IMG/VR virus record: IMGVR_UViG_3300030419_004329
Coordinates: 1 to 23,624 of that record
Origin: a virus
Reading direction: 5' to 3' (one strand)
Length of the DNA: 23,624 nucleotides
Shown: positions 19,495-23,624 of the stretch, piece after piece
Layout of the letters: the number at the start of each line of letters is the position of its first letter
Position numbering within the stretch: position 1 is the first letter of the stretch
The notes under the pieces: generated by a model
Told to the model about the DNA's origin: nothing
The model's database searches: none
Seen by the model: only the letters and a program-made list of their open reading frames with translations
Made by a program: the position numbers and the translations under genes

Positions 19495-19926
19495 ATGGAT
19501 TCTAAGTATGAAAAATTGAATGATACTTTTAATATTACTCCTACTGAAGTAACAGTAGATGAAAGTGATGTGTCTGTTGGAGTTGAAAGAAAAAAACCAG
19601 ATAGACTTACTAAAAGTGATGTTGAAAGGGATTATGAATATACAAGAGGAAATCTTTATTCAATAATAGAGAAAGGACAAGAAGCTATTAATGGTATTCT
19701 TGAGGTAGCTCAAGAAAGTGATATGCCTAGAGCATATGAAGTTGCAGGACAACTAATTAAGAGTGTTTCTGATGCAACTGATAAGTTAATGACTCTTCAG
19801 CAGAAATTGAAAGATGTCAATGAAGAACAAGAATCTAAAGGACCTACTACTGTTAATAATGCTTTGTTTGTAGGATCTACAGCAGAATTACAAAAATTAT
19901 TAAAAGATCAGGCAAAGACTAAATAG
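19495..19926 (+). CDS. gp16: Terminase small subunit gp16
   Basis: Homologue of T4 gp16 (164 aa; here 143 aa), the small terminase that forms a ring, recognises concatemeric phage DNA and stimulates gp17 ATPase during packaging. The polar N-terminal part (about 1-45) is followed by DVERDYEYTRGNLYSIIEKG and a central helical region QEAINGILEVAQESDMPRAY then EVAGQLIKSVSDATDKLM, a predicted antiparallel coiled-coil pair as in the T4 family. The C-terminus has NNALFVGSTAELQKLLK, also typical of T4-like gp16, where this end is thought to contact gp17. Position after gp15 agrees. Unlike in T4, gp17 does not follow directly: three genes (about 2.4 kb) intervene. Confidence 0.92.
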   Translation: MDSKYEKLNDTFNITPTEVTVDESDVSVGVERKKPDRLTKSDVERDYEYTRGNLYSIIEKGQEAINGILEVAQESDMPRAYEVAGQLIKSVSDATDKLMTLQQKLKDVNEEQESKGPTTVNNALFVGSTAELQKLLKDQAKTK

Positions 19927-19967: not shown

Positions 19968-21686
19968 ATGTCTAACGACAATTTGCCATCGATAGATGAT
20001 TATTCTCCCATAGAATTACCATCTTTAGATTCTGTTTTATCAGAACAACAATTACCATCAGTTGAAGACTTCTTAGGGAAGGAAGAAGTAGAAGAAGTTT
20101 TAACCGAGGAAGTAATAGAACCAGAACCTCAGATAGAGGTAGATCAACAAGATCTTACTGAAGTACTGCGTTTGATTAATGATGTAAGAAAAGATATTCC
20201 AAATATTCCTGAAATAAAATATTATGATGATGAATTAGAAAAGATTGTTGAACAAATTGAAGAAGTAAGAGAGAGTATTCCAGAAGTCAAATATTATGAT
20301 GAAGATATTTCTTCATTGAAAGAAGATATTGAAAATATTCCTGAGATTAGATATTATGATGAAGAAATAGTTTCAGTTAAAAATAAGATTAATGAGATTA
20401 TAAGGGAAGTAAAGGATATTCCTGAAATAAGGTATTATGATGAAGATCTTCAATCTTTAAAAAAAGATATTAGTGATGTAAGATCTGAGATTCCTATTTT
20501 TCCTAAATGGGTTAATGAAGTTAATGAAGTTCCAGATTTTGCTTGGATTGGAAAAACTTTTGGTGTAATTGATGATGATTTTATAAAAGTTAATGATCAC
20601 TTAAATTTACTTAAAGGTCACATTGATTCGGAAATCAAACAAGTTTCTGAAACTTTTGATACTAAGGATTTTGAATCTAGAGTCGATATTAAAGCTTTAA
20701 CTGATGATTTAAAAGAGTCTAAAGAAAAAATTTATATTGAGTTAAAAGAAGCTGCTTTAAAGATATATGAGCATCAATCTCAATTTAAGGATGATGATAG
20801 AAAATTAAAGAAGCAAGTTCTTAGTAAATTAAATGAAACCAAACAGAATATTGAGAAGAAGATTACCGAGTATAATGAAAAACAATCTAAAGCTCAGAAC
20901 TCACTTTCTGGATATCTAGATGAATTAAAAGAGGATGTAATTAATTTACCCACAGTCAAATATTATGATGAAGATATTAGATTCTTGAAAAAAGATATAT
21001 CTAAGTTGGATGAGAAAATTGATGATCAATCTAAGAATTTTTTAGAATTATATAAACTTGTTAAAGAGTTAAAGGAAGAACAAAAAGAATTAAATGAAGG
21101 TCTTTTAAACATTCCTCCCGATGAAGATAATAAAGATCCTCTTACTCCCTTAGATCAAAAATTTGCTACTCTTAAGGATTTAGCAGCTAACTATCGTTTA
21201 TTTGTTAATAGAGTTCAGGAACAGTTAGCTACCTTTGGTGGAGGTGGATCTGTACAATTACAGTATCTTGAGGATATTAGTGGAATTGCTACTAATTTAA
21301 GTGCTTATGATGGAATGTTCTTGAAGGTAGATACTTCTCAAGCTGCTGGAAAGAATTTTAAATTTGCTAGTGTAAGTTCTGCTAGTACAACTTGGACTCA
21401 TGATGCTAATGATGATCTTTATACATTACAAAATGTAGGTATTGCAACTACTGCTAGATCGGATTATGCTTTATATGTGGGAGGAAACTTCTTTGTTGAT
21501 GGAGATATTGAATATGATGAAGTAAAGGGTAGAAATATTGATATCAGCGGTATAGGTACTATAAATAATCTCGAAATTAATTCTGGTATAGTTACAGCTG
21601 TTGCGGGAGCAGCAGTTACCTATTATGGTGATGGTTCTAATTTGACAGGAAAGGCATCTATTGGACTTGCTATCGCATTAGGATAA
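19968..21686 (+). CDS. Coiled-coil and fibre-like structural protein with YYDE repeats
   Basis: 572 aa. Residues 1-65 are acidic with two short LPSxxxxL-like motifs (LPSID, LPSLDSVL, LPSVEDFL). Residues 66-385 are mainly charged coiled coil, punctuated by five I/LP-x-[IV]-[KR]-YYD-[DE] boxes at about 80, 104, 124, 151 and 328. Then comes a Gly-rich hinge (FGGGGS, 423-428). The C-terminal 140 residues are beta-rich and fibre-like: LYVGGNFFVDGDIEYD, GIGTINNLEINSGIV and YYGDGSNLTG, the last common at tips or joints of marine phage tail fibres. Homologues occur beside the terminase genes in marine T4-like phages, unnamed or called structural. A trimeric fibre, whisker or head-associated rod is plausible; function is not known. 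No Shine-Dalgarno is evident; it overlaps the next gene by 1 nt (TAATG). Confidence 0.8.
   Translation: MSNDNLPSIDDYSPIELPSLDSVLSEQQLPSVEDFLGKEEVEEVLTEEVIEPEPQIEVDQQDLTEVLRLINDVRKDIPNIPEIKYYDDELEKIVEQIEEVRESIPEVKYYDEDISSLKEDIENIPEIRYYDEEIVSVKNKINEIIREVKDIPEIRYYDEDLQSLKKDISDVRSEIPIFPKWVNEVNEVPDFAWIGKTFGVIDDDFIKVNDHLNLLKGHIDSEIKQVSETFDTKDFESRVDIKALTDDLKESKEKIYIELKEAALKIYEHQSQFKDDDRKLKKQVLSKLNETKQNIEKKITEYNEKQSKAQNSLSGYLDELKEDVINLPTVKYYDEDIRFLKKDISKLDEKIDDQSKNFLELYKLVKELKEEQKELNEGLLNIPPDEDNKDPLTPLDQKFATLKDLAANYRLFVNRVQEQLATFGGGGSVQLQYLEDISGIATNLSAYDGMFLKVDTSQAAGKNFKFASVSSASTTWTHDANDDLYTLQNVGIATTARSDYALYVGGNFFVDGDIEYDEVKGRNIDISGIGTINNLEINSGIVTAVAGAAVTYYGDGSNLTGKASIGLAIALG
20205..20974 (+). repeat. 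Five IPE[IV][KR]YYD[DE] boxes in coiled coil
   Basis: Boxes begin at 20205, 20277, 20337, 20418 and (diverged, LPTVKYYDED) 20949. The first four are 24, 20 and 27 residues apart, and each is followed by a short amphipathic helix such as EKIVEQIEEVRE or SSLKEDIEN. The proline-containing box probably breaks or kinks the coiled coil at regular points. Confidence 0.75.
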
Positions 21687-21955
21687 TGAAGAGTTTTAAA
21701 CAATTTACGGAAAATACATCTCCTGCAGGGAAAGATTGTCCTCCAGGAAAATATTATTGCACTAAAAGGAAGAAGTGTATGCCTATTCCTAGTGGATATC
21801 ATGTAGGAAGAGGTGGTTGGTTAGTAAACGACAAAAAGAATGGTAATGGAAATGGCAACGGTAATGGGTCCAATAACGGTAACGGAAATGGTCATGCTGG
21901 TGGTAACGGTAATGGCTCTGGCGGTGGCAACGGCGGCGGTGGTAATGGTGGTTGA
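21686..21955 (+). CDS. Gly/Asn-rich protein with capsid-targeting-like N-terminus
   Basis: 89 aa. The ATG overlaps the upstream stop (TAATG) and AGGA stands just before it, so it is translated with the 572-aa gene. The N-terminus MKSFKQFTEN closely resembles the capsid targeting sequence of T4 internal head proteins (MKTYQEFIAE in IPI), which directs them into the prohead and is cut by the gp21 protease after Glu; here FTE|N would be the cut site. Then come three cysteines (18, 25, 31: C-x6-C-x5-C) in a basic stretch with PSGYHVGRGGW, and a tail of residues 52-89 made almost wholly of Gly and Asn. The 'CPPGKYYC...C-P-I-P-x-G-[YW]-HVG' core recurs in small marine phage proteins of unknown role. 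An internal head protein injected with DNA is the best guess; the evidence is motif similarity only. Confidence 0.7.
   Translation: MKSFKQFTENTSPAGKDCPPGKYYCTKRKKCMPIPSGYHVGRGGWLVNDKKNGNGNGNGNGSNNGNGNGHAGGNGNGSGGGNGGGGNGG
21839..21952 (+). repeat. Degenerate (GGN AAY) hexanucleotide repeat encoding Gly-Asn tail
   Basis: Codons alternate GGN and AAY with Ser, His and Ala interruptions, becoming nearly pure Gly at the end. Synonymous codons vary along the tract (AAT/AAC, GGT/GGA/GGC), and GGC is much commoner here than in the rest of the window. Simple tracts like this can change length by slippage or recombination. Confidence 0.75.
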
Positions 21956-21982: not shown

Positions 21983-22372
21983 ATGGATGCTTTAAGTAGA
22001 ATTAGACAAAGTGTTTCTGATTACCATGAAAAATTGGATTCAGTAACTATTGAAGATGCTGAGGGAAATACTAGATATGAAATTATTGATGTAATTAAAC
22101 CTCTTTCTATGAAAGAGGCACATAGAGTTCCTGCTCAGTATGGAAATACGTGGAGAGTTCTTCTTTCTTGGAGAGGAAAGTTGTTTATGATGAGACTCTT
22201 CTTCCCATTCACCACTAGACCAACTAGAAAGCAGGTTAAGTATGCAATTGATAAGATATATCCTGAAGCTACTATAAGAAATTATTATATTGATACTATG
22301 GATGGGGGAGCATATGTTAATGCTGGTGAAATTTCAGGAACTTTAGGAATAAAAGCCGGAGGGAGTGTTTAA
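21983..22372 (+). CDS. Conserved hypothetical protein upstream of gp17
   Basis: 129 aa, not recognised as a named family. The N-terminus (MDALSRIRQSVSDYHEKLDS) is helical; the middle has WRVLLSWRGKLFMMRLFFPF, a strongly hydrophobic/aromatic beta stretch, followed by TRPTRKQVKYAIDKIYPEAT and YYIDTMDGGAYVNA. The alternation of helix and strand suggests a small alpha/beta fold rather than a membrane protein, because arginines and lysines interrupt the hydrophobic run. It lies alone with gp17 behind a late promoter, and the gp17 ATG is 6 nt after its stop, so a role near packaging or in terminase regulation is possible but only inferred from position. Confidence 0.75.
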   Translation: MDALSRIRQSVSDYHEKLDSVTIEDAEGNTRYEIIDVIKPLSMKEAHRVPAQYGNTWRVLLSWRGKLFMMRLFFPFTTRPTRKQVKYAIDKIYPEATIRNYYIDTMDGGAYVNAGEISGTLGIKAGGSV

Positions 22373-22378
22373 TTTGTT

Positions 22379-23624
22379 ATGCCTGATGAAATTTATCTTG
22401 GTAATCCGAATCTAAAGAAAGCCAATGTTCCTGTAGAGTTTACTCAGGAACAAATTTTAGAGTATGTGAAATGTAAGGATGATCCTGTTTATTTTGCTAA
22501 AAATTATATAAAGATTGTTACTCTTGATGAAGGTTTAATGCCTTTTGAACCTTATCATTTTCAAGAAGAATTAATAAGTAATTTTCATAAGAAGAGATTT
22601 AATATATGTAAGATGCCACGACAGACTGGTAAGTCTACCACTGTTGTAGCATTTCTTTTACACTATGCAGTTTTTAATGATAGTGTTAATATAGGTATAC
22701 TAGCAAACAAGGCATCTACTGCTAGAGAACTTTTAGGTAGACTTCAAATTGCATATGAAAATTTACCCAGATGGATGCAGCAGGGTATTTTATCTTGGAA
22801 CAAAGGTTCACTGGAGTTAGAAAATGGATCTAAAATCTTGGCTGCTTCAACCTCTGCCTCAGCTGTTCGAGGAATGTCATTCAATATATTGTTTTTGGAT
22901 GAATTTGCATTCGTTCCAAATCATATTGCTGATTCGTTTTTTGCTTCCGTTTATCCTACTATTACTTCTGGTAAGAGTACTAAGGTCATTATTGTCTCGA
23001 CGCCGCATGGAATGAATCATTTTTATCGTCTCTGGCATGATGCTGAGAGAGGAAAGAATGAATATACCCCAACTGATGTCCATTGGTCGGAAGTTCCAGG
23101 CAGAGATGCCAGGTGGAAACAGGAAACTATTAATAATACATCAGAAGATCAATTTAAGATTGAGTTTGAGTGTGAGTTCCTAGGATCTGTTGATACTCTT
23201 ATTGCTCCTAGTAAATTAAAGACATTAGTATATGATAGTCCAAAACAAAGAAATAAAGGATTGGATATTTATGAGGGAGTTAAAAAGGATCATGATTATT
23301 TGATAACAGTAGACGTGGCTAGAGGAGTTGGTAATGATTATTCAGCTTTTGTTGTAGTAGATATTACTAAGTTTCCCCATAGGGTAGTAGCAAAATATAA
23401 GAATAATGAAATCAAACCTATGCTATTTCCTAGTATCATCTATGATGTAGCAAAGAATTATAATGATGCCTTTGTTCTTTGTGAAGTGAATGATGTAGGA
23501 GATCAAGTAGCTGCTATTCTTCAATATGATTTAGAATATGAAAATCTTCTGATGTCTTCTATGAGGGGAAGAGCAGGTCAAGTTATTGGACAAGGATTTT
23601 CTGGAAAGAAAGTTCAATTGGGAG
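22379..23624 (+). CDS. gp17: Terminase large subunit gp17, 3' partial
   Basis: Motor ATPase and headful nuclease that pumps DNA through the portal into the prohead; T4 gp17 is 610 aa and 415 residues are visible here. N-terminal ATPase: adenine-binding FEPYHFQEEL just upstream of Walker A, PRQTGKST at 80-87 (K85); Walker B ILFLDEFAF at 170-178 with D174 and catalytic E175; coupling motif STPHGMNHFYRLW from 207. C-terminal RNase H-like nuclease: first metal-binding Asp in ITVDVARGVGNDYS (D312, equivalent to T4 D401) and second acidic residue in VLCEVNDVGD (E369, equivalent to T4 E458). The last nuclease acid lies beyond the window. All visible key residues are intact. Start: ATG at 22379, 6 nt after the previous stop; the purine-rich GGAGGGAG lies 13 nt upstream, a long spacing. 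Confidence 0.96.
   Translation, partial: MPDEIYLGNPNLKKANVPVEFTQEQILEYVKCKDDPVYFAKNYIKIVTLDEGLMPFEPYHFQEELISNFHKKRFNICKMPRQTGKSTTVVAFLLHYAVFNDSVNIGILANKASTARELLGRLQIAYENLPRWMQQGILSWNKGSLELENGSKILAASTSASAVRGMSFNILFLDEFAFVPNHIADSFFASVYPTITSGKSTKVIIVSTPHGMNHFYRLWHDAERGKNEYTPTDVHWSEVPGRDARWKQETINNTSEDQFKIEFECEFLGSVDTLIAPSKLKTLVYDSPKQRNKGLDIYEGVKKDHDYLITVDVARGVGNDYSAFVVVDITKFPHRVVAKYKNNEIKPMLFPSIIYDVAKNYNDAFVLCEVNDVGDQVAAILQYDLEYENLLMSSMRGRAGQVIGQGFSGKKVQLG

Follow-up and report, generated by a model that had tools for sequence, protein, structure and literature searches.

The 89-aa gene located between the two terminase genes of this virus fragment most likely encodes a small basic internal head protein, which would carry a capsid targeting sequence, be packaged in the prohead, be cleaved by gp21, leave the particle together with the DNA and represent one module of a larger cargo family. 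The N-terminal tag, the family of relatives, the module fusions and the virion data from other cyanophages all lead to this reading, and therefore we consider the product most likely to be an internal protein that is packaged in the prohead and belongs to a modular cargo family.

The window, which is the whole stretch of DNA analysed, is the complete virus-fragment record of 23,624 bases, and gp21 lies outside the record. Its gene order (gp14, gp15, gp16, the 572-aa fibre-like gene, the 89-aa gene, the 129-aa gene and gp17) is of the T4-like cyanophage type. The features needed below are the following:

19495..19926, + strand: gp16, terminase small subunit (Pfam PF11053, PHROG 445).
19968..21686, + strand: 572-aa tail-fibre-like gene, whose stop overlaps the ATG of the 89-aa gene (TAATG).
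21686..21955, + strand: 89-aa protein with a targeting-like N-terminus, a three-Cys core and a Gly/Asn-rich tail (ORF call, sequence and relatives).
21686..21712, + strand: residues 1-9, MKSFKQFTE, a well supported T4-type capsid targeting sequence, with proposed cleavage E9/N10 (T4 IPI match, enrichment and family conservation).
21737..21826, + strand: residues 18-47, the Cys core CPPGKYYCTKRKKCMPIPSGYHVGRGGWLV (alignments and AlphaFold).
21839..21952, + strand: Gly/Asn-rich tail, predicted to be disordered (AlphaFold pLDDT below 50), which is a linker to more modules in fused relatives.
21983..22372, + strand: 129-aa gene, DUF7279-like (match below the Pfam cut-off).
22379..23624, + strand: gp17, terminase large subunit, which runs off the record (84.7% identity to P-TIM68).

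The sequence-only reading had placed an ORF beginning with MKSFKQFTEN at 21686-21955, which the ORF call and the sequence bear out, and had described it as encoded between the terminase genes; it does lie in the gp16-gp17 interval, but the 572-aa and 129-aa genes lie there too. The 572-aa gene has a counterpart at the same position in S-SCSM1 that is annotated as a virion tail fibre. The 89-aa protein reads MKSFKQFTENTSPAGKDCPPGKYYCTKRKKCMPIPSGYHVGRGGWLVNDKKN, followed by the Gly/Asn-rich tail. Judged by sequence comparison the ORF is a real gene, because it has at least 541 relatives, its core is nearly identical in two other contigs (L002 and L003) and the codons of the Gly/Asn tail differ synonymously between the window and its relatives. 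Furthermore, the DNA of the cassette at window positions 21651-21951 is 86-94% identical to these two contigs, whereas the flanking genes are only 67-78% identical, and this difference suggests that the cassette was recently exchanged between phages. Regarding the late-promoter-like motif ATAAATA, 5 copies are present in the window, one of them (TATAAATA) some 120 bases ahead of the 89-aa gene; in an informal judgement this number is within chance for an AT-rich sequence of 23.6 kb and we did not take it as a promoter signal.

The tag carries most of the argument. It has the two aromatic residues at positions 4 and 7 (F4 and F7), its E9 is the sole Glu of the 89-aa protein, and FTE/N is the only site in the protein that fits [FILMVT]xE[AGSTN]. 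In BLASTP against T4 IPI the alignment is confined to residues 1-15, where 8/15 residues (53%) are identical; the N-terminus of T4 IPI begins MKTFKEFTSTTTPVS. Across 1.36 Mb of sequence from seven cyanophage genomes, 13 ORF starts were observed to fit the pattern MK.[FY]..F..?E against 0.11 expected, the expectation being obtained by shuffling residues 2-12 in 1000 trials, with a maximum of 2 in any trial. Thus, the tag pattern occurs at cyanophage ORF starts far above chance. Among the MK starts of the same genomes, 13 have their aromatic pair at positions 4 and 7, and 5 have it at the second most frequent spacing. When the pattern was run at the DNA level on T4, it recovered ipI, ipII and ipIII at their start codons.

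The tag is also conserved in the family. We took as members the 55 relatives with a Met 10-25 residues ahead of the core, picked without the tag regular expression from loci ranked by similarity to the query, so that the tagged share of the family is inflated in the following counts: K2 is present in 49, F4 in 45 (plus Y in 3), F7 in 49, I8 in 36 and E10 in 40, while positions 3, 5 and 6 are variable, and 51/55 have [FILMV]xE at residues 7-12. T4 genetics attributes capsid targeting to positions 4 and 7 in the IPIII tag and processing to positions 8 and 10 (PMC9026906). The window copy is off the family consensus at positions 8-10, with TEN against IEE. Most relatives have I/M-x-E with the Glu at position 10, as T4 IPII and IPIII do (I-x-E), whereas the window copy has F-T-E with the Glu at position 9. 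Sites of gp21 are less typically of the F-x-E type. MKSFKQFTE is well supported as a T4-type capsid targeting sequence, whereas the processing of the window protein after FTE, argued from T4, is plausible but less certain.

Behind the tag, the three Cys that had been noticed in a basic core are indeed C18, C25 and C31 within a Lys-rich stretch. In alignments of 16 and 52 sequences the window protein fits a C-x6-C-x5-C core with conserved G, Y, K, P and G, and in the larger one C18, G21, Y23, C25, K30, C31, P35, G37 and G44 are invariant. AlphaFold predicts for the core four short strands with a block-mean pLDDT of about 78-86. The predicted core gave no significant Foldseek match against the PDB (best E = 1.3), and searches of Pfam, NCBIfam and PDB sequences with the 89-aa protein or the core profile gave nothing above the cut-off; the PHROGs match was to the unannotated family phrog_30733 only. 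A zinc-finger or knottin label was considered and dropped given the Foldseek result, the zinc finger also because three conserved Cys make no classical zinc site. The protein left after the proposed cut at E9 would have 80 residues and be basic, with a pI of about 9.7.

The tail of about 36-37 residues had been read as Gly/Asn-only. Gly and Asn do dominate it, but its final 36 residues, 20 G and 12 N, also include 2 S, 1 H and 1 A. Slippage alone was considered less likely as its origin, because Gly and Asn codons are mixed. As a separate observation, S-CREM2 ORF15 (L186 12843-13331), an MS-detected virion protein starting with MNFSEFNE, carries CPEGYKWNKKLGKCEPK, which may be a remote variant of the core with two Cys.

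A profile of the Cys core retrieved at least 541 relatives from IMG/VR, and we examined the best 80 of them, ranked by query similarity. Among these 80 loci the core is mostly preceded by a tag such as MKEFDKFIEE, and most of the tagged stand-alone members are found between gp23 and gp3, others between gp16 and gp17 as in the window. A third position of family members is near the cytidylyltransferase and gp61 genes. Both the presence and the position of the gene differ among related phages. The core was found in 25 records of annotated phages, all of them marine or cyanobacterial; in cultured phages the homologues are mostly fusions in which no tag immediately precedes the core, and in several fused relatives the core is at the N-terminus and untagged. 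The P-TIM68 gene (107819-108940) has an internal MKNFTSFME ahead of the Cys core. The homologues of P-HM1, P-SSM7, S-SSM7 and P-SSM4 are annotated as T4-GC 119. In a collection of 84,980 prokaryote species genomes only two contigs (L178 and L179) bear the core; they are MAG contigs labelled Gammaproteobacteria and Euryarchaeota. The first is flanked by gp16- and gp17-like genes and is therefore probably a mis-binned phage contig, and probably both matches are phage contigs in MAGs.

Regarding the fusions, the modules found in relatives behind the core and the Gly/Asn stretch are LHKWF, DUF6321, ACYHKV, DUF7279-like, DUF192 and SAM lyase, and this comparison of sequences shows the Cys core and Gly/Asn stretch to be a recurrent module joined to other cargo. 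In two relatives (L005 399-1664 and L006 277-1677) the core with its Gly/Asn linker, a SAM lyase (PF23780, E about 1e-14) and a DUF7279-like domain are joined in one polyprotein beside gp17. The DUF7279-like domain is in other relatives fused behind the Cys core or provided with a tag of its own (S-SCSM1_30, MKTFKQFMSE), and in the window it is the separate 129-aa gene. DUF6321 alone occurs in 479 phage records. In L002, the nearest relative among the matches listed, the next gene is tagged too (MKSFKNFNEA...) and encodes a 681-aa polyprotein with a stretch resembling DUF192 by eye. Stand-alone SAM-lyase-like genes with a tag were also seen at L057 12221-12736 (AG-345-L05) and P-TIM68 118770-119258 (MKTFKEFLEE and MKTYKEFIQD), and in S-SZBM1 and P-RSM6 a tag-like motif (ITYREFIAEGN and KTWQEFLDEGN) is internal, just ahead of the lyase-like part.

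Several module junctions resemble protease sites. Each of the seven genuine LHKWF contexts has Glu at position -1, typically in V-S-E/G; in S-SCSM1 ORF29 the junction reads VSE/GTLHKWF. Around DUF6321, too, a similar Glu is found in most contexts, either at the motif or shortly before it. T4 gp21 cuts at sites of this type. The ACYHKV modules have no Glu directly at the motif start, and therefore the junction rule fails at some modules as delimited here. An annotated prohead protease, an annotated scaffold and a gp23 with a candidate LME/A site are present in P-TIM68, the phage with 84.7% identity to the window in the terminase.

Tagged proteins have actually been detected in cyanophage virions. 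A scan of 2715 candidate starts in S-CREM2 gave five matches (ORFs 6, 13, 14, 136 and 154), and 5/5 are MS-detected in virions according to the published proteomics, with a pattern that was widened after the MS list had been seen (Q/N/R at 2, L/W at 4, GTG/TTG starts); the strict original pattern gave 2/2 MS-detected matches, three with a GTG start. The S-CREM2 paper reports the SAM hydrolase gp6 and the cytidylyltransferase gp154 among the virion proteins found by mass spectrometry, with the authors' caution that such proteins in CsCl-purified virions might be contaminants (PMC10665884). Their tags are MKDFDSFLEE and MKNFSSFLTE respectively. The MS-detected S-CREM2 ORF137 (108049-109521) has stretches resembling DUF7279 and DUF6321 by eye. 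In S-SCSM1 the NMNAT ORF91, which begins with MKSFLQFLKE, is reported as detected in the virion (PMC9602691). In the same phage ORF29, a member of the core family near terL, is labelled 'virion protein' in GenBank, whereas ORF30 is tagged yet has no virion-protein annotation. Together, these data suggest that T4-like marine cyanophages inject a set of tagged helper proteins with their DNA.

In the virion protein S-CREM2 ORF12 (L186 7704-10313) a tag-like LRFASFMAE is found close to the N-terminus, together with the NMNAT-type stretch GLVSDGHGSYMD, and the annotation of this ORF as a 'CRISPR-Cas9 nuclease' looks doubtful. The stretch behind the tag of the NMNAT, SDGHGGWYDSRGEFVAKTEGGKLKFY (L098 820-2049 and relatives), was found at 179 places in 128 phage records, sometimes twice per genome, and a similar one follows the tag of the S-CREM2 kinase ORF14; this type of stretch is possibly a shared N-terminal domain of virion cargo.

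The proposal that the protein is packaged by a T4-type capsid targeting sequence, made originally from the letters of the DNA, thus gains from the T4 IPI match and the family-wide conservation of the tag, from the location of the genes near gp23 or between gp16 and gp17 and from the mass spectrometry of tagged proteins in the virions of two other cyanophages. The other targeting-like N-termini that the sequence-only reading had named as a test of its proposal are supplied by the relatives.

The same facts have to be weighed under other explanations. The protein could belong to the minor structural or assembly components of the head or neck; it would then use the tag for entering the prohead and act there, in DNA condensation or core formation, without being an injected effector. 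The product is basic and small, the gene lies beside gp23/gp3 or gp16/gp17, family searches gave no enzymatic domain for the 89-aa protein, and T4 IPIII is known to influence head assembly (PMC9026906). However, in relatives the module is fused to SAM lyase and DUF192, for which there is no obvious assembly role, and the presence and position of the gene vary across related phages, so we regard this explanation as unlikely, if still worth keeping in mind. The TAATG overlap with the 572-aa gene could point instead to a fibre-associated or surface protein coupled to the fibre gene ahead of it, in which the Cys core would form an extracellular disulfide module and the tail would serve as a spacer, and Foldseek did give weak resemblances to extracellular Cys-rich repeats, none of them significant. 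Nevertheless, a tag like that of the T4 internal proteins points to the head interior, most tagged relatives sit behind gp23 and tagged enzymes are found in virions, which makes this explanation very improbable. Finally, a cytoplasmic protein that resembles the tagged ones by chance or by descent is hard to reconcile with the enrichment and conservation of the tag, the head-gene neighbourhood and the proteomics of relatives, and we give it hardly any credence.

Under the preferred reading of an injected internal protein, MKSFKQFTE would dock the 89-aa protein through F4 and F7 on the prohead core (a gp22-like scaffold). By analogy with T4, a gp21-type prohead protease would then remove the tag after E9, the mature basic protein of 80 residues would be retained in the head and it would leave with the DNA at ejection. 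In the fused relatives the prohead protease probably releases from the polyproteins several small proteins for injection, including enzymes such as SAM lyase, because sites resembling those of the protease are present at several module junctions. The Cys core may be a general carrier or a protective module, as its attachment to SAM lyase and other cargo in relatives would allow, or it may act by itself. Since the core is fused to a SAM-lyase-like domain, counter-defence cargo is plausible for the tagged system as a whole but not for the window copy, which has no such cargo. A broader scheme of modular delivery can be put forward tentatively, as a real possibility that we stop short of favouring: polyproteins tagged with a CTS and made of interchangeable Cys-rich or basic modules and enzymes (SAM lyase, DUF192, NMNAT) would be packed in the prohead, cut there by the prohead protease at Glu junctions into a cocktail and injected, which would disarm the host or reprogram it; in this scheme the module of Cys core and Gly/Asn stretch would be a widespread cassette swapped between phages.

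T4-like cyanophages abound in the sea, and for many of their small proteins no role has been assigned. A tag legible in the sequence and in agreement with virion proteomics would make the injected set predictable from any genome or contig, as a signal peptide does for secretion, and it offers a reason for the presence of NMNAT and SAM hydrolase in cyanophage virions. Furthermore, polyproteins cut by the prohead protease are a simple hypothesis that is open to existing mass-spectrometry data.

Internal proteins tagged with a CTS are, in principle, established in T4. In the open-access literature, which leaves most subscription journals and preprints outside, 'cyanophage' and 'capsid targeting' occur together in one T4 review only, where 'cyanophage' stands just within the reference list; as far as this literature goes, no description appears to exist of a tagged modular cargo family in cyanophages whose junctions resemble protease sites. 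The closest known protein is T4 IPI, which is also small, whose N-terminus MKTFKEFTSTTTP is identical to the window's MKSFKQFTENTSP at 8/15 residues and whose route through the prohead core, gp21 processing and ejection would be the expected one here. However, the literature gives IPI a longer propeptide, its mature part is unrelated (the alignment being confined to residues 1-15) and it has neither the Cys core nor the Gly/Asn tail. The role as restriction inhibitor belongs to T4 IPI, and by BLASTP the window protein has no homology over the mature domain. With T4 IPII/IPIII (MKTYQEFIAE) the family tags MKEFDKFIEE and MKNYSQFMEE match position by position, whereas IPIII has no similarity to the window protein beyond the tag. 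Among cyanophage families, Cys-core homologues carry the T4-GC 119 annotation, which in the accessible text of Sullivan et al. 2010 covers hypothetical proteins only, with the tag and the module junctions unmentioned (PMC3037559). Host entry was proposed for the S-SCSM1 and S-CREM2 proteins in papers whose accessible sections leave the targeting tag unmentioned (PMC9602691, PMC10665884). The S-SCSM1 NMNAT and the S-CREM2 SAM hydrolase carry a cargo other than the Cys core, but they share with the window protein the same type of N-terminal tag and both are MS-detected in virions.
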